From assembly GCF_011090385.1 (NCBI RefSeq), contig NZ_SEWW01000003.1, forward strand, positions 248,001 to 312,000: DNA of 64,000 bases. The letters are read 5' to 3'. Of this stretch, positions 26,756 to 41,082 are shown one piece after another (position 1 is the stretch's first letter; the number at the start of each line of letters is the position of its first letter). The DNA is from Aquirufa beregesia (GTDB lineage Bacteria > Bacteroidota > Bacteroidia > Cytophagales > Spirosomataceae). A model generated the notes under the pieces. It saw only the letters and a list, made by a program, of their open reading frames with translations, did not search any database and had not been told where the DNA came from. The translations under genes were made by a program, and so were the position numbers.

Positions 26756-28714
26756 ATGAAAAGAATATTGGCTTACGCTTGCCTATTGTTGACCTGTACT
26801 TTGACAGTAAATGCTCAAACGAAGTCGGCATATAGTGCATACGACTTATTTCATCCTTTATGGAATTATCAATCCAATTCACCCTATCGTTCAGGTGCAG
26901 GTATCCCAGGTCCATCTTATTGGCAAAACTCCGCCGATTATAAAATTCAGGTGAGTTTGGATGAGGAGGCTAGGAAAATATCTGGGGATGTGGAGATTAC
27001 GTATAAAAATAATTCTCCAGACAAATTGACTTTTCTTTGGTTGCAATTGGATCAAAATTCCTTTAATACACAATCTCGGGGTGGTAAAACTACACCTATT
27101 TCAGGAGGACGTTTTGGAAATGTGGGTTTTGATGGAGGCTATAAAATCGAAAGCGTATTGGTGGATGGAAAAGTGACTCCATTTATCGTGGAAGATACCC
27201 GCATGCAAATTCGTTTGGTACAACCTTTGGCAGAAAAACTAGGACAGGCTAAAATCAAGATTGTTTATTCATTTACTTCTCCTCAAAATGCATCTGATCG
27301 CATGGGCTTGCAAGAGACCAAAAATGGCATGATTTTTCAAGTAGCTCAGTGGTTTCCGCGCATGTGTGTATACGATGATATTGAGGGTTGGAATGTGCTT
27401 CCTTATTTAGGTGCAGGAGAATTTTATTTAGAATATGGCAATTTCGAATATGCCATCAATGTGCCAGCCTCCCATTTAGTGGTGGGTTCGGGGGAATTAC
27501 TCAATCCTTCCGAAGTATTGACTGCGGAGCAGTTAAAGCGTTGGAATGCCGCGGCAAATTCTGAAACTACAGTTATCATTCGTGGTGAGGATGAAGTGAA
27601 AAATCCTGCTTCTCGACCAGCGAAAGACCGTTTGACATGGAAATTTAAATGTCAAAATGCCCGAGATGTGGCTTTTGCTACTTCGAAATCATTCATCATG
27701 GATGCTGCTCGAATCAATTTACCCAGTGGAAAAAAATCTTTGGCGATATCGGTTTATCCAGAAGAGTCCAATGGTAAAAATGCCTGGGGAAGATCTACGG
27801 AATATGTGAAGGCATCCATTGAGTATTACTCGAAGTGGTTGTATGAGTATAGTTATCCAACAGCTACTAACGTGGCGGGTATCGTGTCAGGCATGGAATA
27901 TCCAGGAATTATTTTCTGTGGATTCCGTGATCAAACAGCGGCCTTATGGGGAGTAACAGATCATGAATTTGGACACAACTGGTTCCCGATGATCGTAGGC
28001 ACCAATGAGCGCAAGTTTCCTTGGATGGATGAAGGATTCAATACCTTCATCAATTTTTATTCCACGGATGCTTTCAACGATGGGGAATACAAGAACCGCA
28101 AATTTGATATGCATCAAATTGCTAAACCCATGTTTAGAGAAAATGCCGATCCTATCATGTCGATTCCCGATGTGGTTCAGCCAAGAAATTTAGGATGGGA
28201 AGCTTACAACAAACCGGGTTTTGGATTGAAGATTTTGCGTGAACAAATCTTAGGTGCTGACCGATTTGACTATGCATTCAAGAATTATATTAAAAACTGG
28301 GCATTTAAGCACCCTACTCCTTATGATTTTTTTCATGCCATGGAAGATGGAGCAGGAGAGGATTTAACTTGGTTTTGGAGACAATGGTTTTTTGAATTAT
28401 GGAAGCTAGATCAAAGTGTGAGTGATGTGGTGTATGTGGAGCAAAATCCTACCAATGGTGCCATTATTACCATCAAGAATTTGGATAAAATGATCATGCC
28501 GGGAATCGTTGAGGTAGAATTATCGGACGGGAAAAAAGAGCGATATACTTTCCCCGTGGAGATCTGGCAGCGTGGTGGCAGTTGGGAGTTTAAGGCCAAT
28601 ACTACTTTGCCCATTAAATCAGTAACCATAGATCCAGATCATGTTTTTCCTGATTTGAATCCTCAAAATAATACCTGGAAACCTTATTCTTATCGAGTAC
28701 CTAAGGCCAATTAA
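26756..28714 (+). CDS. secreted M1 family metallopeptidase
   Basis: This 652-residue zinc aminopeptidase-like protein has a signal peptide (ending VNAQ). It carries the gluzincin motif HEFGH (His403-Glu404-His407) with the third ligand Glu426 in WMDEGFNTF. The upstream substrate-site motif appears as GMEYPG instead of the canonical GAMEN, which is common in bacterial M1-like proteins. It probably trims peptides in the periplasm or outside the cell. An ATG three codons upstream (26747) is also possible. It is probably read together with the acyl-CoA dehydrogenase gene, although the functions are unrelated. Confidence 0.92.
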
Positions 28715-28741: not shown

Positions 28742-28792
28742 GTTCTATTTATTAATACTTTTGTTTTATGCTTTCATCAGCACAACTAAAAT

Positions 28793-28827: not shown

Positions 28828-29691
28828 TTATTTACGGTTTAGAATCCGACCAATGTCATTTGCCTTGGCTAATTCTTCCTTGAGTTTTTCATAGCTGCCA
28901 GAAAGCATCAATCCTTTATATTTCAAAAGTGTGTTGATGTATTCATCCAACACGTCCATCAAGTTTTCTTGATTTTGGTGAAAAATCTGAATCCATGTTT
29001 CTGGGGACGACTTGGCCAAACGAACGGTTGATTCAAAACCAGTAGATGCGAGTTCGAAAATACGTTTCTCGTCTTTTTCCTTTTCCAAAACGGTATTAGC
29101 CAAGGCGAAAGAACAAATGTGGGAAATGTGGGAAATATATGCCGTATGGACATCATGACTGATGGAATCCATATAGATCAGGTTCATGTGTAAACCGTCT
29201 TGGTATAAACTCTCTATTGTTTTTTCGGCATCCGGGTCACTTAGTTCCTGATCACAAATCACGCAGCGTTTACCTTCAAAAAGTCCATCGATAGCCGCTT
29301 CTGGACCAGAGAATTCCGTACCCGCCATGGGGTGAGTTGAGACGAATTGCTTTCTTCTAGGATGATTTTTTAGGGCTTCATAAATGGGACTTTTGGTAGA
29401 ACCCACTTCTATGACGATTTGTTTTTCATGGAACTGATCCAAAATTTTGGGTAATTGTTCCACCAAATTATCCACAGGAGTAGCTATGATGAGGACATCA
29501 ATTACTTGTAGCGCTTCATCCAAAGGTAATAGACGATCAATCAACCCTAATTCCAAAGCTCTTTTTTGGTTTGGGCGATTGGTATCGATACCGATACACT
29601 CTTTGGCCCATCCACTTTTACGTAAACCCAGCGCCATGGAACCACCAATTAATCCAATACCTAAAATTCCAACGACTTTATTTGATTCCAT
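28828..29691 (-). CDS. tyrA: prephenate dehydrogenase
   Basis: This 287-residue cytoplasmic enzyme should convert prephenate to 4-hydroxyphenylpyruvate with NAD(P)+, the tyrosine branch of aromatic synthesis. An N-terminal Rossmann motif VGILGIGLIGGSMA (residues 7-20), ATPVDN, VGSTKSPI and HPMAGTEFSGPEAA (the catalytic His region) are present. The helical dimerisation domain with DVHTAYISHISHICSFALA follows. There is no fused chorismate mutase or ACT domain. It overlaps the upstream aminotransferase gene by 14 bases, so the two form one translation-coupled unit under the tyrosine-rich leader described here. Confidence 0.95.
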   Translation of the reverse strand: MESNKVVGILGIGLIGGSMALGLRKSGWAKECIGIDTNRPNQKRALELGLIDRLLPLDEALQVIDVLIIATPVDNLVEQLPKILDQFHEKQIVIEVGSTKSPIYEALKNHPRRKQFVSTHPMAGTEFSGPEAAIDGLFEGKRCVICDQELSDPDAEKTIESLYQDGLHMNLIYMDSISHDVHTAYISHISHICSFALANTVLEKEKDEKRIFELASTGFESTVRLAKSSPETWIQIFHQNQENLMDVLDEYINTLLKYKGLMLSGSYEKLKEELAKANDIGRILNRK

Positions 29692-30856
29692 TCGACTGTG
29701 TTTTTATGCGCTTACTAGCTGTTTCAAAAAGGGAAATGGGGGCACATAAAGATGTGCGGATGTAGTCATTTCCTTGACTACCAAAAATGCCTCCGGGTGT
29801 GATGAAGACGGCATTTTCTGTTAAAATTTTGTCGGAAAGCTCATAACCATTGGCATATTCAGCTGGGACTTTGGCCCAAACAAACATACCACTTTGTTTT
29901 GGGTCATAGCTGCAGTTCAGTAAGTCCATTAACTGAAACACTACTTTTTGACGAGCGGAATAAATCTCATTTTGTTGTTTAAACCAGGCAGAATCTGCTT
30001 GCAAGGCTTCCACAGCAGCTTCTTGTAGCGGTAAAAACATACCTGAGTCCATATTGGATTTAAAGGTCAAAATGGGGGCTAAGAACTCCTGTTTTCCCAT
30101 GACTGCACCAATTCTCCATCCGGCCATGTTATGGGACTTGGATAGAGAGTTTAATTCTAAGGCCACTTCCTTCATTCCAGGAATACTTAACATACTAATG
30201 GGCTCATCATTTAAGATGAAGCTATAAGGGTTATCGTTGACCAATAATATAGAATGTGCAAGAGCAAAATCACGCAGTTTTTCAAAAAATGCCTTGTCGG
30301 CCTTCGCACCTGTGGGCATATGAGGATAATTCACCCACATGATTTTCACTTTGGATAAATCACGTTTTGCCAATGCATCTAAATCTGGCAACCAGCCATT
30401 GGCTTCAGACAACTCATAACTCTGTACTTCAGCACCTGTTAAGGCACAAGCGGCTTGGTAGGTAGGGTACCCAGGATTGGGAATAAGAGTGATATCTCCT
30501 TTTTCCAAATAGGCCATAGCAATGTGCATGATGCCTTCTTTGGAACCCATCAGAGGCAATATTTCGGAATTAGGGTCAAGAGCTACTTGATATTGTTTAT
30601 CGTAAAATTGAGCAAAAGCTTCACGCAATTGGGGAATGCCTTGGTAACCTTGGTAGGCATGGTTTTCTTTTTTCTGGGCACTAATAATCAACGCCTGAAT
30701 GGTGGCATCTGAGGGTGCTAGGTCAGGACTACCTATACCGAGATTCAGCACAGGTATACCTGATGCTTTCAAGGCTGCAATCTGCTTTAGCTTGGTAGAA
30801 AAGTAGTATTCTTGTACGACTTGTAACCGAGAAGCTGGAGAAATGGTGAAGCTCAT
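29678..30856 (-). CDS. class I/II aminotransferase, probably aromatic amino acid transaminase
   Basis: This 392-residue PLP enzyme of fold type I has the Schiff-base lysine Lys240 in SLSKSHNMAGWR and the carboxylate-binding Arg248. VLNLGIGSPDLAPSD, HAYQGYQGIPQLREA, NPGYPTYQAA and VNDNPYSF are also present. The sequence resembles LL-diaminopimelate/alanine-type aminotransferases. Its coupling with tyrA and the Tyr-rich leader upstream indicate that it makes tyrosine and/or phenylalanine from the keto acids. That specificity is inferred from context. The ATG lies five bases after the T-tract of the attenuator. No Shine-Dalgarno sequence is seen. Confidence 0.9.
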   Translation of the reverse strand: MSFTISPASRLQVVQEYYFSTKLKQIAALKASGIPVLNLGIGSPDLAPSDATIQALIISAQKKENHAYQGYQGIPQLREAFAQFYDKQYQVALDPNSEILPLMGSKEGIMHIAMAYLEKGDITLIPNPGYPTYQAACALTGAEVQSYELSEANGWLPDLDALAKRDLSKVKIMWVNYPHMPTGAKADKAFFEKLRDFALAHSILLVNDNPYSFILNDEPISMLSIPGMKEVALELNSLSKSHNMAGWRIGAVMGKQEFLAPILTFKSNMDSGMFLPLQEAAVEALQADSAWFKQQNEIYSARQKVVFQLMDLLNCSYDPKQSGMFVWAKVPAEYANGYELSDKILTENAVFITPGGIFGSQGNDYIRTSLCAPISLFETASKRIKTQSNGIK

Positions 30857-30861
30857 AAAAC

Positions 30862-30885
30862 AAAAAAACCGACTTGGGGCCGGCT
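30862..30885 (-). terminator. attenuator terminator before aminotransferase-tyrA
   Basis: On the minus strand AGCCGGC (30885-30879) pairs with GTCGGTT (30873-30867) around the loop CCCAA. The 7-bp stem includes two G-U pairs. A run of at least five U follows directly. It lies downstream of the leader peptide and ends only five bases before the aminotransferase ATG. It can therefore only act as a regulated terminator of this operon. Confidence 0.82.
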
Positions 30886-30922
30886 CATAATAAGTTTAAA
30901 TTAAATCTATACCTACAATAGC

Positions 30923-30988
30923 CTATTGGCAGGATGGGAATCCTGCGTAATAATAAGCGTAATAATAAGTAGTTGAATGCATAATCAT
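30923..30988 (-). CDS. tyrosine-rich leader peptide of the aminotransferase-tyrA operon
   Basis: This is a 21-codon ORF on the minus strand, from the ATG at 30988 to a TAG at 30923-30925. Its centre reads HSTTYYYAYYYAGF: six Tyr codons (four TAT, two TAC) in seven positions, plus one Phe. A second in-frame ATG at 30982 could also be used. A perfect 7-bp hairpin overlaps its last codons and an intrinsic terminator lies between it and the first structural gene. This is the classic layout of amino-acid attenuators. Scarce charged tRNA-Tyr would stall the ribosome on the Tyr codons and change downstream folding. The function is inferred from sequence and context. Confidence 0.85.
   Translation of the reverse strand: MIMHSTTYYYAYYYAGFPSCQ
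30929..30946 (-). promoter_or_regulatory. leader hairpin (pause or anti-antiterminator)
   Basis: GCAGGAT and ATCCTGC form a perfect 7-bp stem with a 4-base loop, beginning one base after the last Tyr codon. A ribosome stalled on the Tyr codons would cover its 5' arm and keep it open. A second small stem, CAATA/TATTG, follows at 30916-30928. I do not see an unambiguous long antiterminator pairing with the terminator arm. Confidence 0.65.
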
Positions 30989-30992
30989 GTGC

Positions 30993-31023
30993 CAAAGGTA
31001 TAAAAAAAATGTTTTTATGCAAA
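30993..31023 (-). promoter_or_regulatory. promoter of the tyrosine leader operon
   Basis: On the minus strand TTTG (31023-31020) is followed after exactly 19 bases by TACCTTTG (31000-30993). This is a perfect match to the Bacteroidota consensus TTTG-N19-TAnnTTTG. The expected start point is at about 30986-30989, essentially at the leader ATG (30988), so the leader peptide may be translated from a leaderless or near-leaderless message. Confidence 0.75.
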
Positions 31024-31488: not shown

Positions 31489-34400
31489 ATGATGTTTCAA
31501 AGAAATAGCAATAAATCCATTGATTTATTCATTAAAACGATGGTTGCATTTATCCTTAAAGGGCTTGCTTTTCCCTTATTGATATGGGGGAGTCCATTAG
31601 TTGTTGCCAAAGCGGATTTACATTCTACGAATCCATTTATTGGACAAGCGATTAAATACAAAATTACTATCTCATCTTCTACCGACTTTTTGGCTGGCGA
31701 TGTTAAAACAATTGTGGTACGAGCTGTGGACTCGCAAGGGAATGTGATTACTTCGTATGAAGGACCGAAATCATTGGTTTTTTCTGGTGCCAACCCTTCC
31801 AGAATGGGGCAAAGTCCTATGGTAAATGGGGTAAAATTAGGGGAGAAATTACAGGTGAATTTTACGAAGGGTTTATTCGCATTTGGTCTTCAGCTATTTA
31901 AACAAGAAATGGCGGCTATATCAGTTAAAGGGGATGATTTGGCAAGCTTTGAAAATGAAAAGTTACTAATCCAAGTAAAGCCAAGTAAAAACACCCGTTT
32001 GTTGGCAGATTTAGTGGCTCAACAAGCAAGAGAGCAATCCATTCGCGGGACACTGGCCCTTGTCGATATGTATGGAAATTTATTGGCTGATTTTGATCCA
32101 TCCAAAGATCCGATAACGGTGACGGCTAGTACAGGAGGAGTAATTCATGGATTGGGATCTTCTCAAAATAACGTCTTAAATCAAGCGAGTGACGCACAGG
32201 CTGGCCTCATTGATTTTGCCACATTGGGGATGAAATATACAGGAAAAGCGGGTAAAGTTATTTTTCAATTTACGTCTAGTAAGTATAATGCAAGTGATAC
32301 AGTTGGTTTTGATTTAGGTAAAGAACGATCTTATTTATTGAAATCTGCCAATCAAAATCAATTGGTAGGAACTGAAAAAACGTTAAATATCTATATCCAA
32401 GACCGTTATGGCAATTTGGATACATCATTTACTGGAATTAAAAAATTATTGTTTTCTGGAGCTAGTCCTTCTTTAAAGCAGGGTATTCTACCTTCCATAA
32501 ATAAAGTGCCTTTTGGAAGTAAAGTAAGTATCAGCTTTATTCAAGGTGTTGCCAATGTAGGAATTTCTTTATTTAAAGCCGAAAAGGCGATGATTTCAGT
32601 AAAAGATGATGAGTTTTCATCCTTGGAGGAAGAGAAATTAGAAATAGAAGTTTTGCCTTTACTTGGGAATGCATTAAAACTTAAGATTTCGGAAACCCAG
32701 AAAGTGGGAGAACCTATTTCAGGTTTTATTCAAATAACAGATAGTTATGGAAATGAAGTCAGTGATTTTAATGCATCCAAAAATCCCATTACCGTGACCA
32801 ATAGTATGGGCGGAATAATCAGTGGATTAGGCTCAGCTAAAAATAATGTCATCAATCAATCCACAGATATAATCTTGGGGAAGGCGGACTTGAGTGCCTT
32901 AAAGATGATTTATACTGGGAAAATTGGTGAAGTCGATTTGACCTTTTCCTTAAAATCGGGGTATTCGGAAATCGTTAAAAACAGGGTGTTTTATCCCGGT
33001 TTATCTTATTATAATCGAATAAAAGTAGAGGGCCTAACTACTCAATTGGCGGGAGTGCCACAAACCATTACGCTCAGGTTATTGGATTCTTCGAATAACA
33101 CCCTCCATAATTTCAACGGAGTTAAGGATTTGCTGTTTCAAGGAGCATCTGTGGCAAAATCTGTTGGGAAGGCCCCTACTGCATTAAATAGTTTATCCGT
33201 ACCCATCAATTTTGGCTCTGTTACCACCATTCAATTTGTTAATGGAATAGCTAGCACTCAAGTTGTGTTATATCAGTCAGAAAAAGTGTCTTTAGGAGTT
33301 TCCGAGTTTTTAGGAGCTGAAAGTTTGGTAGAGAACCATTTATCCATCAATGTTAAGGCTTCTAGTTTTCACCATTTGGATATAAGTTTAACAAGTCCAC
33401 AAGTAAATGGGCAAGTCTTCCAAGGTATCAATACCCTCAAGGCATTGGATGAGTATGGTAATGTATGTAGCGATTTTAATGCCCAACAAAACCCTATCCG
33501 TGTCGAAACCCCAAATACGGGAATTTGGGGATTTAAAAGTCTTGGGAATACTTTCATGCTAAATCGATCTTCGGATTTTGTTCAAGGTGAACTTAATTTA
33601 GCAGAAAAAGGCTTTTTTTACCAAGGTGCAGCTAGTACTTCATTTAGATTTGTAGCACAAAATGGAATCGAAACCACTAGTAGTACCATTCAATTCGTCA
33701 ATTCCAATCAGTCGGCTAAGCTGTATATCTCTGGAAATTTGACGCAATTGGCAGGTGATTCCCAACTATTGATCATTAGTGCTTTAAATTCCGTTGGTGA
33801 TACGATTCTTAGTTATCAAGGAAATAAAATGCTGGTTTTTACTGGTGCAGGTAATATCCCCAATTCAATCTTTCAGGCAAAGGTTCAAAATAATAGCGCG
33901 GCTACTGAATCTCCATTAGGGAAAGCTATTTCTATACAATTCATCAACGGAAGAGCTCAGGTTCCTATTTATTTATATTTGGCAGAAAATGCTTTGCTTT
34001 CTGTTCGTGAGACCAATGTTTTTGGAGCCATGGCTGGAAACGATTTTTTGATCCAAGTTAAAGCCAATAGCCCTAAGCAATTAGCGGCTAGCATTAGTAG
34101 TCCTCAAACACGTGGGAAGCCATTTGTTGGAAATAATAGCTTAACCGTTAAAGATACTTTTGGTAATATTTGTCTTGACTTTAATGCAAGTATACAACCT
34201 GTCAGCATTCAGGTTAGTTCGGGGCTTGGTCATGTTAGCGGCCTTGGCAGTGCTCAAAATAATGTGTTAAATCAAGCTTCGGATTTTAAAAATGGTGTAG
34301 CCAATCTAACAGCATTGGGTTTCATTTATCAACCTGCTGCATCTACATTAAACCGTAAAACCTTATTATCAAAAAAGTTGATTCTCTCCACTGAGAGTAA

Positions 34401-37400
34401 TACGTTAGATGTATTTTCCTCAAATTTCATATTTTCCTTATCGGATGAATCAAGTTTAATCAGTACTCAGTCTGATGGAATCGTTATTTCAGATACGGAG
34501 GAGCGCTTATCTATTACGGGTTCTGCTATTCAGTTTACTGGGAAAAGTCAATTTATCAAATTGGAGGCTAAAGATGCCCAAGGTGTTTTAGTGCGGACCT
34601 ATTCCGGAGTTAAAAATTTGATATTTTCGGAATCTGTTATACCTAATTCATCTCAGATGATTGCTACCGCCTTAGGTATTCCTTTCGGTCAATCTACCGC
34701 TGTGGAGTTTTTTGAAGGAACAGCTACTCTTGAATTAATTTTGAAAACAGTCGTTAATCAAGATACCATTCGAGTAAAGGATGGGGCTTTAGCGAGCCAA
34801 TTACCTGGAGACTATCTTGTCGCCAAGGTGGTATTAGGCAATGTAACTAGTTCATCAGGTAATCAATATGGCCTGACGGATGATGTGTATTTTTCTTTTG
34901 ACCGTCGACAAATTCCTGTTTGGTCCATTCAAGGAAGAAATGCCGTAATTAGGATAGATAAATCGATCATTAACAATGATCAATTAACCGATGCGGGTAC
35001 TCTGGCGAAATTAGTTGAAAGAACGGATGCCTTATATGATTTTTATAAAAACTCCTTAGGCTATGAACCTCCAGGAGGGAACCCTGATTTTGGGTATAAA
35101 ACTAGCGTATTTTTTGGCATTCCATCATGTGGATCTGGATGTGGTTTAGTGGGAGCAAAAGGTATTGAAGTGAGTGGATTTGACAATATCTATTTTAACC
35201 TGAAAAATAATACCAATGTAAATAGGGATGTCATTTTAGCCTATGAATTTGGTCGAAATTTCTTTGACTTTAGTTCAAAAGTCCTTTTCCCATATAACCC
35301 CAACAGCCAAGAAAAAAATGGAGGAATGGCAGAAGCATTTGCTAGTTTATTTACAGCTTATGCATTCAATGATTTATTGACAGATCCCCAACAAAGAAAG
35401 TTTAATGAGACCTTATTGAATATCTCCTGGTTTAGAGAAAATTTTATAGGGTATATCAATGATTTGGATGCCAATCCTTATAATGTTTGGGCTAAATGGG
35501 ACCGAATAGGTTATAATGATTATAACCGAGGTACAGGAACGAATACGGATGATGAGCCAGCTTGGAAGCCAGTAGGGCTCTTGGAAGGCATCATTAGCAC
35601 CTTTGGGAAATCCACCATTTTTCCTAAGTTTTTCCAGGAATTACGGAAAATGCCGAAAGTCAATACCATTGAAGATGCATTAAGTAATATCGCTCAAGTT
35701 GCAGCTAATTGTACGCAGACTAATCTAGTCCCATTTTTTAAACATGTCGTTAAGTTTAATTTAAATTTAGCTACTGAAGCGGCCATTAGTGCATTGTCCC
35801 CTCATCCTGATAAATTAATTCAGTATGAAAATTTACTCTGGTATATCTCCCCATTTCATACAGTCCGGATCAATATTCGAAGTATTAATTATTTGAATAA
35901 TCAAAATTGGTATGTAATTAAAAAAGGCAATAAGATTATATCCTCAAGTCAGCATGGTAATAATGAAATCCCCTACAGTATTTTGGGAAATCAACATGAG
36001 GTTGACCTGACAATTGAAATGCAGGATGCTAATCATCAAGTACTCGATGCTTATACAATCAAATTAAAAAAACGACATAACATTAATTTTTTTGATTATT
36101 CCGATGATTTGTATGCCTTTTATTTGGCCAATAGATCGACCAAAATATATCAAGAATCGGGGAATGTGGTCATAGAAAATGTTAGTCCAACGTTGTTTGA
36201 CCATGGGCTCTTGCGTAAATCTTTCAGAATTGCTAAAGATCGTACGATGCGCCTGTCGAGTGTCGTGAGAAGAATTGGCCCCAATTTTCAAACCAATGTA
36301 GTGAATAATTATGCTGCTGTAGTCACAGGAGGGACATTTTATGGATCAGGGTCTTTACGATTAGGCTTTGATATTGGTCAAAATAATATCACCAGTAATT
36401 TTACATTAAACCAATTCATCTATTCAAAAAAATTATTAAAACCTGAGGCAAATTTGAGTGTGGTTACCATTGGTTTGGAATCGGTGGGGAATCAACAAAA
36501 GTCCTATTTCTCGAATTTGCTTTATCGTGATGAAACGGATACAGATGGTGATGGGCTTGTTGACTTTGAAGATAATTGTCCTTCAACCTATAACCCCAAT
36601 CAACTAGATACAGATAGGGATGGTTTGGGAGATGCTTGTGATGATGATTTTGACGATGATGGAAATATCAATTCCACAGATCCTAATCCCATGGTTCCCA
36701 TAGCTCAAAATGATGTAATCCAGCAGGCATTTAGTCAAGGGACAATACATTGGCAAATTTTAAAAAATGATGATTTTTTGCCTGGAGCTTCTATCAGTTT
36801 ACGCCGGGTTTCAGGGACCGATACGGGGATACTTAATTTAAATTCCTTGACAGGTTTTATGACCTATTCACCTACTGAATCAGAGGAAGATTCGGTATCG
36901 TTTATTTATGAAGTATGTAATACCTTGACAGGTGTATGTGCCACGGCCCAAGTAAAAATTTTAGATATTAATCAAGCTTCAAAATTCATTTTAACCGGGA
37001 GTTCAACTCAAATTGCAGGATCAAGTCAAACTGTCCGAATACAAGCCACAAATAGAAGGGGAATTCCCATTCCCACTTATTCTGGAACTAAAGTACTTCA
37101 ATTTTCAGGAACGAATTCCTCCTTGGCTACTACCTTCAAATCCCGAGCAAATGGCCTTGATTTTGGATTAAATACACCCGTGAATTTTAGTAATGGTGAG
37201 GCACAAATAGATGTGATTTTATATAAATCTGGTTTGGATTCCCTGAGTGCCACGGAAAGTATTATCAAAACTTCAGGTTTGGACAAATTAGCAATACATG
37301 TTTCAGAGAAAGCATTTCAAAAATTAAGTGTCCAATTACAAAACCCACAAGTCAATCAAAAGCCTTTTTATGGGCTTAATTCATTAATTGCCCAGGATGA

Positions 37401-40400
37401 ATATGGGAATCCTGTTTTGGCCTTTAATGCAGCTATAAATCCAATTACCGTAAGTGCTAGTCAAGGAGGAGTAATCTCTGGATTATCAGGAGGATATCGT
37501 CTGACAAGTTCAAGCGACTTTAACCAAGGTATGGCAAATTTGACACAGCTAGGGATGACTTATTCAGGTGTAAACGGCCTTGATGTCTTGACATTTAGCC
37601 CTACAATTGGATTGAGTACACAAAGTGAAATTCTCATTCAATCGGATTTAATAAAACCTACTCAACTTCTAATTTCTGGAGATTCGGTTCAAGTGGCAGG
37701 AAATGCAAACATGATCACTATTCGAGTTTTGAACGATTTGGGGGAATTGATGGATACCTATTCCGGAACCAAGACTCTATTGTTTAGTGGGGCCAAGAAC
37801 TCTATAAATCCAGTTGTTTTTCCTCAAGTAATAGATAACCTGTCGCAAATTAGAAATTTTGGTTCAGCCACCAGTATTGATTTTGTGGGTGGGATAGCTC
37901 AGATTTCCATGAAGTTATTCCATGCTTTTTTGGCGCAAATTCAAGTTCAAATTTTGGAAGATACACTCACATCTAGTATTCTCCCTGTTTTGGTGAAAGC
38001 GGGACCTTTGGCCAAGTTTAATTTACAAATGACAAGCCCTCAGACCACAGAAACACCATTTGTGGGAGTTAATACATTGAGTGCCTTGGATGCCTTTGGA
38101 AATCTCATTCTTGATTTTAATGCAGGTTTAAGCCCCATTAAGGTAACAAGCACGTTGCCTGGCTTTATCTCGGGACTATCTGGTGGAGATCAATTAATTA
38201 ATTCCGGAGATTTTGTACAGGGAATAGCGAATTTGAGTGCGTTGGGGATGCTATACTTTGGTACTGAAGGAAAAGGATTTTTTACATTCAAAAGCAGTTC
38301 CGGTATTCAAATTACCAGTAATCTGATTGAAATCCTGATGGCAGATTTTGATGGTGATGGAATCCCCAATTCCATGGAATGTTATCAAACTTATACACTT
38401 CGGGGGAATTGTCAAGATTTTGATGGAGACGGATTAGTGAATTCTATGGATACGGATTCAGATGGAGATGGGATACCCGATGAGCGAGAAAAGAATCGAG
38501 ATTCAGATGGCGACCGGCATGCAGATTACCTAGACCTCGATTCGGATAATGATGGGATATTGGATTCCATCGAAGGGGAATTTGACCCAGATGGGGATGG
38601 AATACCGAATTACCTGGATTTGGATTCAGACAATGATGGAATTTTGGACGTCTGGGAAGCCAGCAATACGGTACGAGGTAATTTAGATGACAACTACGAC
38701 GGTCGGGTGGACATGAAAGGTCTATTACCAGATGCCAATGGTAATGGTTTGGCCGATTTTCTAGAAATAGGCTTTGGAGGAAGTCCAGCCCCTATTCCAG
38801 ATACGGATCATGATGGCAAGCCAGATTATGTAGATCTAGATTCGGACAACGACGGAATTGTAGATGCTATCGAAGGGACCAAGGATATAGATGGAGATAG
38901 TTTTCCCAATTACCGTGATTTAGATTCAGATGGGGATTGGCTAGGTGATCAGGATGAAAGGAATGTAGATAATGATATGGATGGGATCCCCAATTACTTG
39001 GATTCGGATTCAGATGATGATGGTATACCTGATGCTTGGGAGGGGAAAAATAAGTGTGCCACGTGTCAACAAATGAAAGACGATTTAGATGATGGATGGG
39101 ATGACCGTGGACAGTATATCAAGGTCATTGATACCGATTCAGATGGTACTTCTGATTTTTTAGACCTAGATTCAGATAATGATTGCATCCCTGATCGAAT
39201 TGAATTGGGAGCCGATGGAGATGGGGATGAAATCCCAAATTTTCGAGATTTGGATTCTGATAATGACGGGATGTTGGATAGCCAAGAGGCAGGAGATTGC
39301 CTGTATCCTAGAGATAGCGATTCGGACGGATTGTATGACTTTGAAGACTCTGATGCGGATAATGATACCATTCCGGATAGCGTAGAAGTTGGCCCAAATC
39401 CGACTAATCCAGTGGATACCGATAAGGACGGAACCCTCGATTATTTGGATGTGGATTCGGATGGTGATGGAATACCAGACTCAGTGGAGGCTGGTTCAAA
39501 TCCTAGCAAACCTGTGGATACGGATGGAGATGGGAAAGCTGATTATCAAGATGTAGATTCAGATAATGACACGATACCAGATTTCAAAGAGGCAGGTTCG
39601 AATCCCCTTACACCTGTGGATACAGACTCAGATGGAATGGCTGATTACCTAGATTTGGATTCAGACCAAGATGGCATGCCAGATGAAGTGGAGGCAGGAT
39701 TAGATCCCAATAAACCCATTGATGGTGACCTAGATGGGCAGGAAGACTTTCGAGATCTTGATTCAGATAACGATAGCATTTTAGATGCCGTCGAAGCCGG
39801 GGATTTCTTACATCCTGTGGACACCGATGCCGACGGAAAAGCGGATTATTGTGATGCGGACTCAGATAATGATGGCATCTTAGATAAGATAGAAGTGGGT
39901 CTTGATCCAAGTAATCCTCTGGATACCGATGAGGATGGTCGAGCAGATTTTCGAGATATCGATTCTGACAACGATGGTATGCTGGATGGATTAGAAGCCG
40001 GGTTAGATGCAACAAAGCCTGTGGATAGTGATTCAGATGGAATGCCCGATTACCGTGATTCGGATTCAGATAATGATGGCATCCTTGATGTAATAGAGGC
40101 TGGATCAGATCCCTCTAAACCTTTGGATACTGACAGAGATGGTCTTGAAGATTTTAGGGATTTGGATTCAGACAATGACACTATTCTAGATGCTGTGGAA
40201 GTAGGAAATGACCCACAAATCCCGATAGATACGGATCAAGATGGCTTAGCCAATTACCGAGATATGGATTCTGACGAAGATAGTATTCCTGATCAGGTAG
40301 AGGCAGGTTCTAATCCATTAAATCCTGTAGATACCGATGGTGATAGCTACCCAGACTATTTGGATCTTGACTCAGATAATGATACGATTCCCGATAAGTT

Positions 40401-41082
40401 GGAAGTGGGTCCAGATGTGAATCACCCTTGGGATACGGACTTAGATGGGAAAGAAGATTTTCGTGATAAGGATTCCGATAATGATGGCATCCCCGATCAA
40501 TTGGAAGTAGGGCCTAATGTGTTAATTCCGATAGATTCAGATCAGGATACGCTTCCTGATTACCGAGATGTGGACTCTGACAATAATGGATTAACGGATA
40601 CTGTGGAGGTAGGACCAGATCCTTTACAACCTTTGGATACTGATGCTGATGGAATAGCCAATTATCGAGATATAGATGATGATCAGGATGGAATAATCGA
40701 TGCTTATGAAAATGACGTCAATTATGGAGGATTGCCGGATTGTGATCAAGATGGGATAGACAACCGAGTAGATGCTGATATGTGTGAGATTTTTTCACCT
40801 CAAGCTATTTCACCCAATCAAGATGGAATGAATGATGTTTTGGTCATCCCCGGAATATTTAGAATGCAACCCAATCGAATGGTTATTGTCAATAGATGGG
40901 GGGATGTGGTCTATGAAACCAACAATTATCAAAATAATTGGGGAGGTTTGACAAATAAGACCATTGGTCTATTGACTAGCAATGGGAATTTGCCTGATGG
41001 GACTTATTATTACTATGTTGATTTTTTCGGGAAGTATCCGAATATCCGAACATTCGTGTACATCAATCGACTAGCGAAATAG
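31489..41082 (+). CDS. giant secreted multidomain protein with T9SS type B sorting domain
   Basis: The protein has 3197 residues. A long signal peptide occupies about residues 1-42. Five Ig-like module pairs follow to about residue 1115: module A has TQLAGxxQTI and YxGxKxLxFSGA, and module B has PFxGxNxL, DxYGNxxxDFNA, NPIxV and GGxISGLGS. Residues about 1130-1440 resemble a gluzincin peptidase but carry YEFGR (1252-1256) where HExxH is expected. A linker, a TSP3-like segment (about 1684-1730) and a cadherin-like domain (about 1745-1820) come next. Two more A/B pairs follow to about 2280, then an Asp-rich calcium-type region (about 2285-3095). The last 95 residues are the gliding-motility-associated type B sorting domain (FSPQAISPNQDGMNDVL, VNRWGDVVYE, LPDGTYYYYVDF). 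It is probably a T9SS-exported adhesin or matrix protein. Confidence 0.9.
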   Translation: MMFQRNSNKSIDLFIKTMVAFILKGLAFPLLIWGSPLVVAKADLHSTNPFIGQAIKYKITISSSTDFLAGDVKTIVVRAVDSQGNVITSYEGPKSLVFSGANPSRMGQSPMVNGVKLGEKLQVNFTKGLFAFGLQLFKQEMAAISVKGDDLASFENEKLLIQVKPSKNTRLLADLVAQQAREQSIRGTLALVDMYGNLLADFDPSKDPITVTASTGGVIHGLGSSQNNVLNQASDAQAGLIDFATLGMKYTGKAGKVIFQFTSSKYNASDTVGFDLGKERSYLLKSANQNQLVGTEKTLNIYIQDRYGNLDTSFTGIKKLLFSGASPSLKQGILPSINKVPFGSKVSISFIQGVANVGISLFKAEKAMISVKDDEFSSLEEEKLEIEVLPLLGNALKLKISETQKVGEPISGFIQITDSYGNEVSDFNASKNPITVTNSMGGIISGLGSAKNNVINQSTDIILGKADLSALKMIYTGKIGEVDLTFSLKSGYSEIVKNRVFYPGLSYYNRIKVEGLTTQLAGVPQTITLRLLDSSNNTLHNFNGVKDLLFQGASVAKSVGKAPTALNSLSVPINFGSVTTIQFVNGIASTQVVLYQSEKVSLGVSEFLGAESLVENHLSINVKASSFHHLDISLTSPQVNGQVFQGINTLKALDEYGNVCSDFNAQQNPIRVETPNTGIWGFKSLGNTFMLNRSSDFVQGELNLAEKGFFYQGAASTSFRFVAQNGIETTSSTIQFVNSNQSAKLYISGNLTQLAGDSQLLIISALNSVGDTILSYQGNKMLVFTGAGNIPNSIFQAKVQNNSAATESPLGKAISIQFINGRAQVPIYLYLAENALLSVRETNVFGAMAGNDFLIQVKANSPKQLAASISSPQTRGKPFVGNNSLTVKDTFGNICLDFNASIQPVSIQVSSGLGHVSGLGSAQNNVLNQASDFKNGVANLTALGFIYQPAASTLNRKTLLSKKLILSTESNTLDVFSSNFIFSLSDESSLISTQSDGIVISDTEERLSITGSAIQFTGKSQFIKLEAKDAQGVLVRTYSGVKNLIFSESVIPNSSQMIATALGIPFGQSTAVEFFEGTATLELILKTVVNQDTIRVKDGALASQLPGDYLVAKVVLGNVTSSSGNQYGLTDDVYFSFDRRQIPVWSIQGRNAVIRIDKSIINNDQLTDAGTLAKLVERTDALYDFYKNSLGYEPPGGNPDFGYKTSVFFGIPSCGSGCGLVGAKGIEVSGFDNIYFNLKNNTNVNRDVILAYEFGRNFFDFSSKVLFPYNPNSQEKNGGMAEAFASLFTAYAFNDLLTDPQQRKFNETLLNISWFRENFIGYINDLDANPYNVWAKWDRIGYNDYNRGTGTNTDDEPAWKPVGLLEGIISTFGKSTIFPKFFQELRKMPKVNTIEDALSNIAQVAANCTQTNLVPFFKHVVKFNLNLATEAAISALSPHPDKLIQYENLLWYISPFHTVRINIRSINYLNNQNWYVIKKGNKIISSSQHGNNEIPYSILGNQHEVDLTIEMQDANHQVLDAYTIKLKKRHNINFFDYSDDLYAFYLANRSTKIYQESGNVVIENVSPTLFDHGLLRKSFRIAKDRTMRLSSVVRRIGPNFQTNVVNNYAAVVTGGTFYGSGSLRLGFDIGQNNITSNFTLNQFIYSKKLLKPEANLSVVTIGLESVGNQQKSYFSNLLYRDETDTDGDGLVDFEDNCPSTYNPNQLDTDRDGLGDACDDDFDDDGNINSTDPNPMVPIAQNDVIQQAFSQGTIHWQILKNDDFLPGASISLRRVSGTDTGILNLNSLTGFMTYSPTESEEDSVSFIYEVCNTLTGVCATAQVKILDINQASKFILTGSSTQIAGSSQTVRIQATNRRGIPIPTYSGTKVLQFSGTNSSLATTFKSRANGLDFGLNTPVNFSNGEAQIDVILYKSGLDSLSATESIIKTSGLDKLAIHVSEKAFQKLSVQLQNPQVNQKPFYGLNSLIAQDEYGNPVLAFNAAINPITVSASQGGVISGLSGGYRLTSSSDFNQGMANLTQLGMTYSGVNGLDVLTFSPTIGLSTQSEILIQSDLIKPTQLLISGDSVQVAGNANMITIRVLNDLGELMDTYSGTKTLLFSGAKNSINPVVFPQVIDNLSQIRNFGSATSIDFVGGIAQISMKLFHAFLAQIQVQILEDTLTSSILPVLVKAGPLAKFNLQMTSPQTTETPFVGVNTLSALDAFGNLILDFNAGLSPIKVTSTLPGFISGLSGGDQLINSGDFVQGIANLSALGMLYFGTEGKGFFTFKSSSGIQITSNLIEILMADFDGDGIPNSMECYQTYTLRGNCQDFDGDGLVNSMDTDSDGDGIPDEREKNRDSDGDRHADYLDLDSDNDGILDSIEGEFDPDGDGIPNYLDLDSDNDGILDVWEASNTVRGNLDDNYDGRVDMKGLLPDANGNGLADFLEIGFGGSPAPIPDTDHDGKPDYVDLDSDNDGIVDAIEGTKDIDGDSFPNYRDLDSDGDWLGDQDERNVDNDMDGIPNYLDSDSDDDGIPDAWEGKNKCATCQQMKDDLDDGWDDRGQYIKVIDTDSDGTSDFLDLDSDNDCIPDRIELGADGDGDEIPNFRDLDSDNDGMLDSQEAGDCLYPRDSDSDGLYDFEDSDADNDTIPDSVEVGPNPTNPVDTDKDGTLDYLDVDSDGDGIPDSVEAGSNPSKPVDTDGDGKADYQDVDSDNDTIPDFKEAGSNPLTPVDTDSDGMADYLDLDSDQDGMPDEVEAGLDPNKPIDGDLDGQEDFRDLDSDNDSILDAVEAGDFLHPVDTDADGKADYCDADSDNDGILDKIEVGLDPSNPLDTDEDGRADFRDIDSDNDGMLDGLEAGLDATKPVDSDSDGMPDYRDSDSDNDGILDVIEAGSDPSKPLDTDRDGLEDFRDLDSDNDTILDAVEVGNDPQIPIDTDQDGLANYRDMDSDEDSIPDQVEAGSNPLNPVDTDGDSYPDYLDLDSDNDTIPDKLEVGPDVNHPWDTDLDGKEDFRDKDSDNDGIPDQLEVGPNVLIPIDSDQDTLPDYRDVDSDNNGLTDTVEVGPDPLQPLDTDADGIANYRDIDDDQDGIIDAYENDVNYGGLPDCDQDGIDNRVDADMCEIFSPQAISPNQDGMNDVLVIPGIFRMQPNRMVIVNRWGDVVYETNNYQNNWGGLTNKTIGLLTSNGNLPDGTYYYYVDFFGKYPNIRTFVYINRLAK
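39391..40713 (+). repeat. 13 tandem units of about 102 bp (calcium-type Asp-rich repeat)
   Basis: Each unit encodes about 34 residues of the form NPxxPVDTDxDGxxDY then xDxDSDNDxIPDxxEAG. The DxDxDGxxD loops resemble thrombospondin type 3 calcium sites. Copies are diverged at the DNA level, though the protein spacing is kept almost exactly, so the array is old and under selection. Less regular repeats of the same kind extend upstream to about 38341. The array joins the Ig-like modules to the sorting domain, probably as a calcium-stiffened stalk. Confidence 0.88.

Follow-up and report, generated by a model that had tools for sequence, protein, structure and literature searches.

Classical attenuation follows a logic of 1:2, 2:3 and 3:4 pairings in a leader RNA, and the amino acids that textbooks name as regulated by leader-peptide attenuation do not, to our knowledge, include tyrosine. 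The E. coli trpL and pheL systems combine a leader ORF rich in the regulated residue, alternative pairings, a terminator before the first gene and a matching biosynthetic operon, as does a locus in the 64,000-nt stretch of DNA analyzed here (the window), from the freshwater bacterium Aquirufa beregesia. Unlike trpL and pheL, the Aquirufa leader would sense Tyr alone, lies behind a Bacteroidota promoter, probably has a leaderless ORF start, and has an antiterminator arm that runs from the stop codon. Ribosome-mediated leader-peptide attenuators of amino-acid operons have been reviewed (PMC11802643). The C. glutamicum aroR leader of aroF likewise places aromatic codons (Phe-Tyr-Phe) before an aromatic operon, but it is described as responding to Phe limitation and not to Tyr availability (PMC11802643, PMC11525245). 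The uORFC-13-1 motif upstream of aroF in Acholeplasma is also a candidate uORF attenuator of the aromatic pathway, with Phe codons and in another phylum (PMC8632094).

The mechanism considered here is of a known kind, and leader-peptide attenuation in Bacteroidota is not new as such. In F. psychrophilum, of the same phylum, transcriptome and structure gave 'strong clues' for leader-peptide attenuation upstream of amino-acid operons, in a passage that names neither operon nor residue (PMC9723704); leader-like sORFs were reported in long 5′ UTRs of B. thetaiotaomicron (PMC7366714), and Bacteroid-trp has been tabulated as cis-regulatory (PMC2864571). A sequence-only reading of the window had called a Tyr-sensing leader on a Bacteroidota tyrosine operon 'not a standard described case'; this holds for the Tyr-only sensing, of which no case was found in the open-licence literature searched, where most subscription papers are missing; for leader-peptide attenuation as such, these reports are precedents in the phylum. 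Little on the control of aromatic synthesis in Bacteroidota was found in that same literature. A probably leaderless leader ORF and, in relatives, apparent tandem double attenuators are further unusual features.

Comparison with Rfam gave limited overlap. Among six Phe/Tyr loci given to the Phe_leader model (RF01859), four scored at their leaders (L119, 46.5 and 28.1 bits; L164, 34.8; L118, 27.8 and 26.1; L112, 25.4), all below the gathering threshold of 55 bits; background matches away from any leader, on the opposite strand, reached 33.0 and 26.3 bits, and L119 (E 9e-5) alone stands out from them. The model matched neither the window's own Tyr locus (L001) nor L038 up to E 5, and it reached gathering level nowhere in the window. 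Bacteroid-trp (RF01692, gathering 49 bits) was found neither in the window nor in any of 38 Aquirufa genomes (65 first-look candidates per genome scored), with a control match in 1/14 (Bacteroides ihuae). No T-box, riboswitch or other family described in Rfam matches at the leader. Elsewhere in the window, a SAM (S-box) riboswitch at 958-1070 on the plus strand (74.6 bits) is the sole Rfam match at gathering level.

The leader region and the genes behind it

The sequence-only reading had placed on the minus strand a Bacteroidota promoter, a 21-codon ORF with Tyr at six of seven successive codons, a 7-bp hairpin right after the last of these, a terminator ending five bases before an aminotransferase ATG and, as the gene after the aminotransferase, a prephenate dehydrogenase; all of these were recovered, the leader region base for base. 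The promoter, TTTG-N19-TACCTTTG (31023-30993), consists of the −33 element TTTG of the Bacteroidota housekeeping type (31020-31023), present in 36/36 Aquirufa loci, and the −7 box TACCTTTG (30993-31000; consensus TAnnTTTG), separated by a 19-nt spacer that is constant in the same 36 loci. The box lies 4 nt 5′ of the leader ATG. Because the TAnnTTTG box has been located at −12 to −5 relative to the start (PMC9723704), the predicted start site, given this gap, is the A of the leader ATG in 36/36 Aquirufa loci, and the leader ORF is thus probably translated from a leaderless 5′ end. In this phylum leaderless messages form a minority: they make up 5.5% in F. psychrophilum (PMC9723704), and 5′ UTRs below 10 nt about 3.7% in B. 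thetaiotaomicron (PMC7366714). Among 25 other loci of the family, the gap between box and ATG is 4-5 nt in 17 and 18-24 nt in seven, and no −7 box was found in one. The window holds one other TAnnTTTG-N4-ATG match, at 28756 (plus strand), between tyrA and a convergent gene ending at 28714.

The leader ORF MIMHSTTYYYAYYYAGFPSCQ (30923-30988, minus strand; ATG at 30988) comprises 21 codons and a TAG stop. Its putative sensor is the run TAT TAT TAC GCT TAT TAT TAC (30947-30967; codons 8-14), in which Tyr occupies codons 8-10 and 12-14. Directly 3′ of the last Tyr codon, at 30946, begins the hairpin GCAGGAT-TCCC-ATCCTGC (30946-30929), which is bulged or shorter in several sister clades. An A/T-rich stretch then separates the leader stop codon from the intrinsic terminator GAGCCGGC-CCCAA-GTCGGTTT with its U-tract (30862-30886, minus strand), whose stem spans 30886-30866 and whose U-tract runs to 30862; the five bases GTTTT follow, and then the aminotransferase ATG at 30856.

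The aminotransferase gene (29678-30856, minus strand) encodes a class I/II enzyme (PF00155), presumably an aromatic aminotransferase; the nearest NCBIfam models are LL-DAP aminotransferases, and its score is under all 25 cut-offs shown. Its end overlaps by 14 nt the prephenate dehydrogenase gene tyrA (28828-29691, minus strand; PF02153, PF20463), which scores 340 bits against NF006307 with a cut-off of 295. The aminotransferase is predicted to act in tyrosine synthesis and, in pheA operons, also in phenylalanine synthesis. The divergent neighbour of the leader is a 3197-residue ORF (31489-41082, plus strand) with long Asp-rich repeats, which we take to resemble thrombospondin type 3 repeats.

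Within the 64 kb window, the Tyr leader is the single ORF having at least 4/8 identical residues and a terminator within 115 nt. In 20 dinucleotide shuffles of the window, the same rule gave 0.4 chance matches per shuffle and a 5/8 rule 0.05, none of them with Tyr at 5/8. The 128-nt leader RNA folds better than 199 of 200 shuffled versions (z −2.7). No second Tyr-run leader was found in the window's genome, where the YYYxYY pattern occurs twice, in this leader and inside a large ORF. By eye, the 180 nt around the DAHP synthase start of this genome hold no aromatic leader. As separate observations, its pheA (called by length and a look at the N-terminus) stands apart without an aromatic leader, and pheA and DAHP synthase (L069, G000:C10; L071, G000:C30) both seem to hold a chorismate mutase domain.

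Conservation of the Tyr run and of the alternative pairings

A search of 99 genomes, the window's own among them, found an aminotransferase orthologue in 36 of 38 Aquirufa genomes; the two lacking it, G024 and G027, are both incomplete. A Tyr-rich leader ORF precedes it in all 36 cases, 20-21 codons long (one codon shorter in three), with 5-7 Tyr and lying 4 nt past the −7 box. Tyr is invariant at codons 8, 13 and 14, is present at codon 12 in the 33/33 leaders having that codon, at codon 9 in 28/36 and at codon 10 in 5/36, and codons 2-7 and 19-21 drift. The terminator stem is 6-8 bp in 33/33 distinct Aquirufa sequences. A wider search covered 222 genomes of the family, Spirosomataceae, 187 of which have an aminotransferase at E<=1e-100; 20 loci with an aminotransferase identity of at least about 62% were added to five earlier ones, and the resulting 25 loci of the same aminotransferase subtype, including Arcicella, Flectobacillus, Pseudarcicella and Siphonobacter, all have a Tyr-run leader.

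A scan for ORF plus terminator passed 58/61 family loci but no shuffled sequence and, on the reverse strand, 0/61; in the three loci missed (L074, L076, L087) the leader is present and, by eye, the terminator stem has a mismatch. Without the terminator condition (densest window of at least 5/8 Phe/Tyr), the leader was found in 61/61 loci, against 9/61 on the reverse strand and 6.8/61 in shuffles; the Tyr-group counts include the accidental-looking ORFs L037 and L081. The check in relatives that the sequence-only reading had proposed thus found both Tyr codons and terminator conserved, a conservation that argues for its interpretation as a Tyr-sensing attenuator.

Two elements not described in that reading are an antiterminator and an outer helix that pairs Tyr codons with the stop-codon region. 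In the minimum-energy structure, the outer 1:2 helix (30921-30958, minus strand) pairs GCTTATT (30958-30952) with AATAGGC (30927-30921), that is, the Ala-Tyr-Tyr codons with the stop codon and the antiterminator 5′ arm, and the 7-bp hairpin forms the top of this structure. It would sequester the antiterminator arm if no ribosome were on the Tyr codons. Among six of the 33 distinct sequences folded whole, L001, L005 and L007 had the outer helix at minimum energy, and L015, L018 and L020 showed it in partial or different form. The antiterminator (30882-30923, minus strand) pairs GGCT (30923-30920) with AGCC (30885-30882) and GTAGGT (30916-30911) with ACTTAT (30895-30890). It uses the terminator 5′ arm, so the two helices are mutually exclusive, and its own 5′ arm begins on the leader stop codon or immediately 3′ of it. 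Folding of 33/33 distinct Aquirufa sequences puts the antiterminator in the same place, its arm being 2-3 bases away from where the stop codon begins; over 36 distinct family ORFs, the median distance between its start and the first stop-codon base is 1 nt. The bases that follow the stop codon in Arcicella and Flectobacillus loci match the terminator 3′ arm; in L038, for instance, GTCGGTTGTGT pairs with ACACAaACCGAC, which includes the terminator 5′ arm.

The antiterminator pairing of the window has an energy of −14.0 kcal/mol compared with a shuffled mean of −9.4 (p 0.035). Over the 36 distinct family ORFs (one accidental; 200 shuffles of the stop-codon region each), the mean z was −2.46, with p<=0.05 in 26 and missed in 10, and outside the family it was −3.18, with p<=0.05 in 44 of 59 distinct ORFs (a few accidental). 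RNAalifold found zero pairs on the raw genus alignment A1, which we attribute to clades aligned out of register, and per-sequence folding, pairing tests and a family alignment, A2, served as structure evidence instead. A2 has 15 rows (14 distinct) from 19 references; it omits L041, L089 and L091, judged too divergent, and L081, the same stretch as L080, and the Siphonobacter-type loci (L040, L084-L088) lie outside it. In A2, 92.2% of antiterminator cells and 98.4% of terminator cells pair, compared with 28.5-41.6% and 21.4-54.0%, respectively, when slid. Covariation in the terminator is clear, with seven cells changed on both sides, which 0/500 shuffles reach. That in the antiterminator is thin: one pair is changed on both sides, which 39/500 shuffles reach, and this pair belongs to a three-way change in L082 (G-C-G to A-U-A) that keeps both exclusive helices. 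The antiterminator is thus supported by the pairing and shuffle tests and only thinly by covariation.

Proposed mechanism and competing explanations

The leader of the window carries a cluster of codons for the pathway end product, a terminator between the leader ORF and the first gene, and a conserved antiterminator exclusive with that terminator. On these grounds we consider it very probable that the locus acts in cis as a ribosome-mediated transcription attenuator, with charged tRNA-Tyr as its signal and the aminotransferase and tyrA as its targets. We infer that transcription would start at or within one base of the leader AUG, with the first ribosome loading on the 5′ end. When Tyr-tRNA is short, the ribosome would stall within the Tyr run and thereby open the helix that joins these codons to the stop region; the freed antiterminator 5′ arm could then pair with the terminator 5′ arm, and the polymerase would read on into the aminotransferase and tyrA. 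A ribosome reaching the stop codon would instead cover the antiterminator arm, and with no translation the 1:2 helix would hold this arm, termination being the predicted default. Masking the 5′ part of L001, the window's leader, to mimic a stalled ribosome left the terminator as the preferred equilibrium fold of the full-length RNA, and the antiterminator showed only in RNA without the terminator 3′ arm. Since the equilibrium in L001 favours the terminator, timing must decide in the modelled switch; the same folding gave the antiterminator in the masked full-length RNA of L005, L007, L015, L018 and L020.

Stalling on codons other than Tyr, in particular Phe at codons 3, 17 and 18, could make the leader a sensor of aromatic supply or of translation generally. 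Leaders elsewhere in the phylum do mix Phe and Tyr, AroR of C. glutamicum contains Phe-Tyr-Phe and yet is reported to be unaffected by Tyr availability (PMC11802643), and many Aquirufa leaders have Phe at codon 3 (22/36), codon 17 (3/36) or codon 18 (11/36). These Phe codons, however, always fall outside codons 8-14 in all 36 leaders, and in the modelled switch codon 3 would come too early and codons 17-18 would lie beyond the hairpin 5′ arm, which makes such general sensing unlikely. We regard as still less probable a translational control in which the hairpin by the aminotransferase start codon hides the ribosome site until a leader ribosome opens it. The spacing would suit it in Aquirufa, where the gap from the U-tract to the ATG is five bases, and in Siphonobacter-type loci (about 14-26), but in Arcicella, Flectobacillus and Pseudarcicella loci about 29-95 nt separate the end of the U-tract from the aminotransferase start, and there too a T-tract follows the hairpin.

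A functional small protein encoded by the ORF, or a terminated leader that works in trans as a small RNA, would make attenuation secondary; peTrpL of S. meliloti, which acts in trans, is a precedent (PMC7298713). Conservation is mainly confined to the Tyr run and the following Ala-Gly, however, the other residues varying, and such a role leaves the antiterminator unexplained, so that we give it an equally slight chance as translational control. A chance ORF next to a terminator belonging to another gene is what short ORFs, common in AT-rich DNA, could produce, and the loose leader test indeed succeeds in 9/61 loci on the reverse strand; nevertheless, conservation refutes this explanation, the shuffles also argue against it, and the upstream gene is divergent and needs no terminator here, leaving it a negligible probability. 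Sequence and comparison show the parts of the attenuator, their conservation, the mutually exclusive pairing and a leader make-up in step with operon content; the start site, stalling, read-through and the sensing of Tyr are predicted.

Aromatic leaders across Bacteroidota and a probable origin of the Tyr version

Named loci were taken as the best 80 of 591 and are thus biased toward close aminotransferases; 63 of them lie outside the family of Aquirufa. In 53 of these 63, pheA precedes the aminotransferase, and in 42 of the 63, pheA, tyrA and DAHP synthase all lie within the stretch examined. A mixed Phe/Tyr leader was found before pheA in 50/53 and in 0/10 without pheA. An even sample of the phylum gave a similar picture: 33/158 genomes have the aminotransferase at E<=1e-80, 32 besides the window's own; pheA precedes it in 30/32, a Phe/Tyr leader was found in 26 of these 30, and none in the two without pheA. 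Eight further order-level loci yielded one Phe/Tyr leader. Under the terminator-free rule, the reverse strand gave 4/53 and 1/30 and shuffles 1.1 and 1.0; with the terminator required, 45/63 named and 21/40 sampled loci passed, with 3 and 4 on the reverse strand. The accidental-looking ORFs L139, L156 and L218 are counted in these numbers. A group of 27 relatives scanned with about 1 kb upstream, too short to pass pheA, gave no match, and rescanning 11 of them with 1.8 kb (L199, L213, L225, L231-L238) found Phe/Tyr leaders in L199, L213 and L236.

In 18 loci, pheA is preceded by a pair of aromatic leaders, both followed by a terminator of their own: 11 of Chitinophaga (L119, L123, L125, L127, L128, L134, L135, L137, L138, L141, L145), four of Saprospiraceae (L107, L111, L112, L130), two of Lewinella (L118, L124) and one other (L133). 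In all 11 Chitinophaga loci, the first leader also has a Trp codon. The 60 nt preceding the first leader contain a −7 box in 17/18, and the stretch between the leaders has one in only 1/18, which suggests one transcript with two gates and points to two attenuators in series. The tandem attenuators of Salmonella mgtCBR are similar in having two short ORFs in one leader, but do not belong to an amino-acid biosynthetic operon (PMC3641672). Two leaders occur in 26/53 named loci, an upper bound in which accidental ORFs are counted, and the doubtful L116 and L156 are dropped from the set of 18. In Hymenobacter, 6/7 named loci have two leader ORFs, though under the strict scan no more than one terminator per locus passes.

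Leader make-up tracks operon content. In the densest window, Tyr:Phe is 197:11 for leaders before an aminotransferase without pheA and 190:266 for those before pheA; Phe occurs in this window in 69/69 (named) and 28/28 (phylum sample) distinct leaders before pheA, and in 4/40 distinct family ORFs, two of them accidental. In the family of Aquirufa, pheA is located elsewhere (28 loci examined), and by the 5/8 Phe/Tyr rule none of these 28 has a Phe leader before it; a 4/8 rule gave two stray ORFs (L180, L184) and a looser rule three (L174, L180, L184), with no run common to species.

Within the family, the leader appears to follow the aminotransferase and not tyrA: none was found within 420 nt (311 nt in one) before tyrA at 18 tyrA loci, linked and unlinked. 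The two genes are on different contigs in 7/8 Arcicella-group genomes, and since the aminotransferase contig continues for at least 2.4 kb in four of these (G099, G101, G102, G106), the split is not due to fragmentation alone. In the Arcicella group (L099, L102; tyrA loci L241-L243, L245, L246, L249, L257), a Tyr leader accompanies the aminotransferase and none the unlinked tyrA. In other genera of the family (L055-L067; tyrA loci L250-L256), the aminotransferase is more distant and, in several, adjacent to tyrA, and no leader was seen within 1 kb.

An aminotransferase tree, made by a quick method and weak in parts, placed 19/19 Tyr-leader rows in one group, together with the leaderless L042 and L043. 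Sister to this group (support 87) are six rows from Saprospiraceae, Lewinella and a Chitinophagales MAG, all with Phe/Tyr leaders. Taken with the match between leader make-up and operon content, this suggests that a Phe/Tyr attenuator probably became a Tyr attenuator, once, when pheA left, the tree alone not fixing the direction; the shift of leader make-up along with operon content is probably a single event.

On balance, we favour the view that an aromatic attenuator is widespread on the pheA-aminotransferase-tyrA-DAHP synthase operon of Bacteroidota and is doubled in Chitinophaga, Saprospiraceae and Lewinella. After the operon was split in the Aquirufa, Arcicella, Flectobacillus and Siphonobacter lineage, the attenuator would have stayed with the aminotransferase and its run would have lost Phe, giving the first known Tyr-only attenuator, with a leaderless start in most of these genera. 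If true, amino-acid specificity would have been re-tuned naturally through codon change, and with related genes standing behind Phe/Tyr, Tyr-only and tandem leaders, codon content could be tied to the signal that is sensed.
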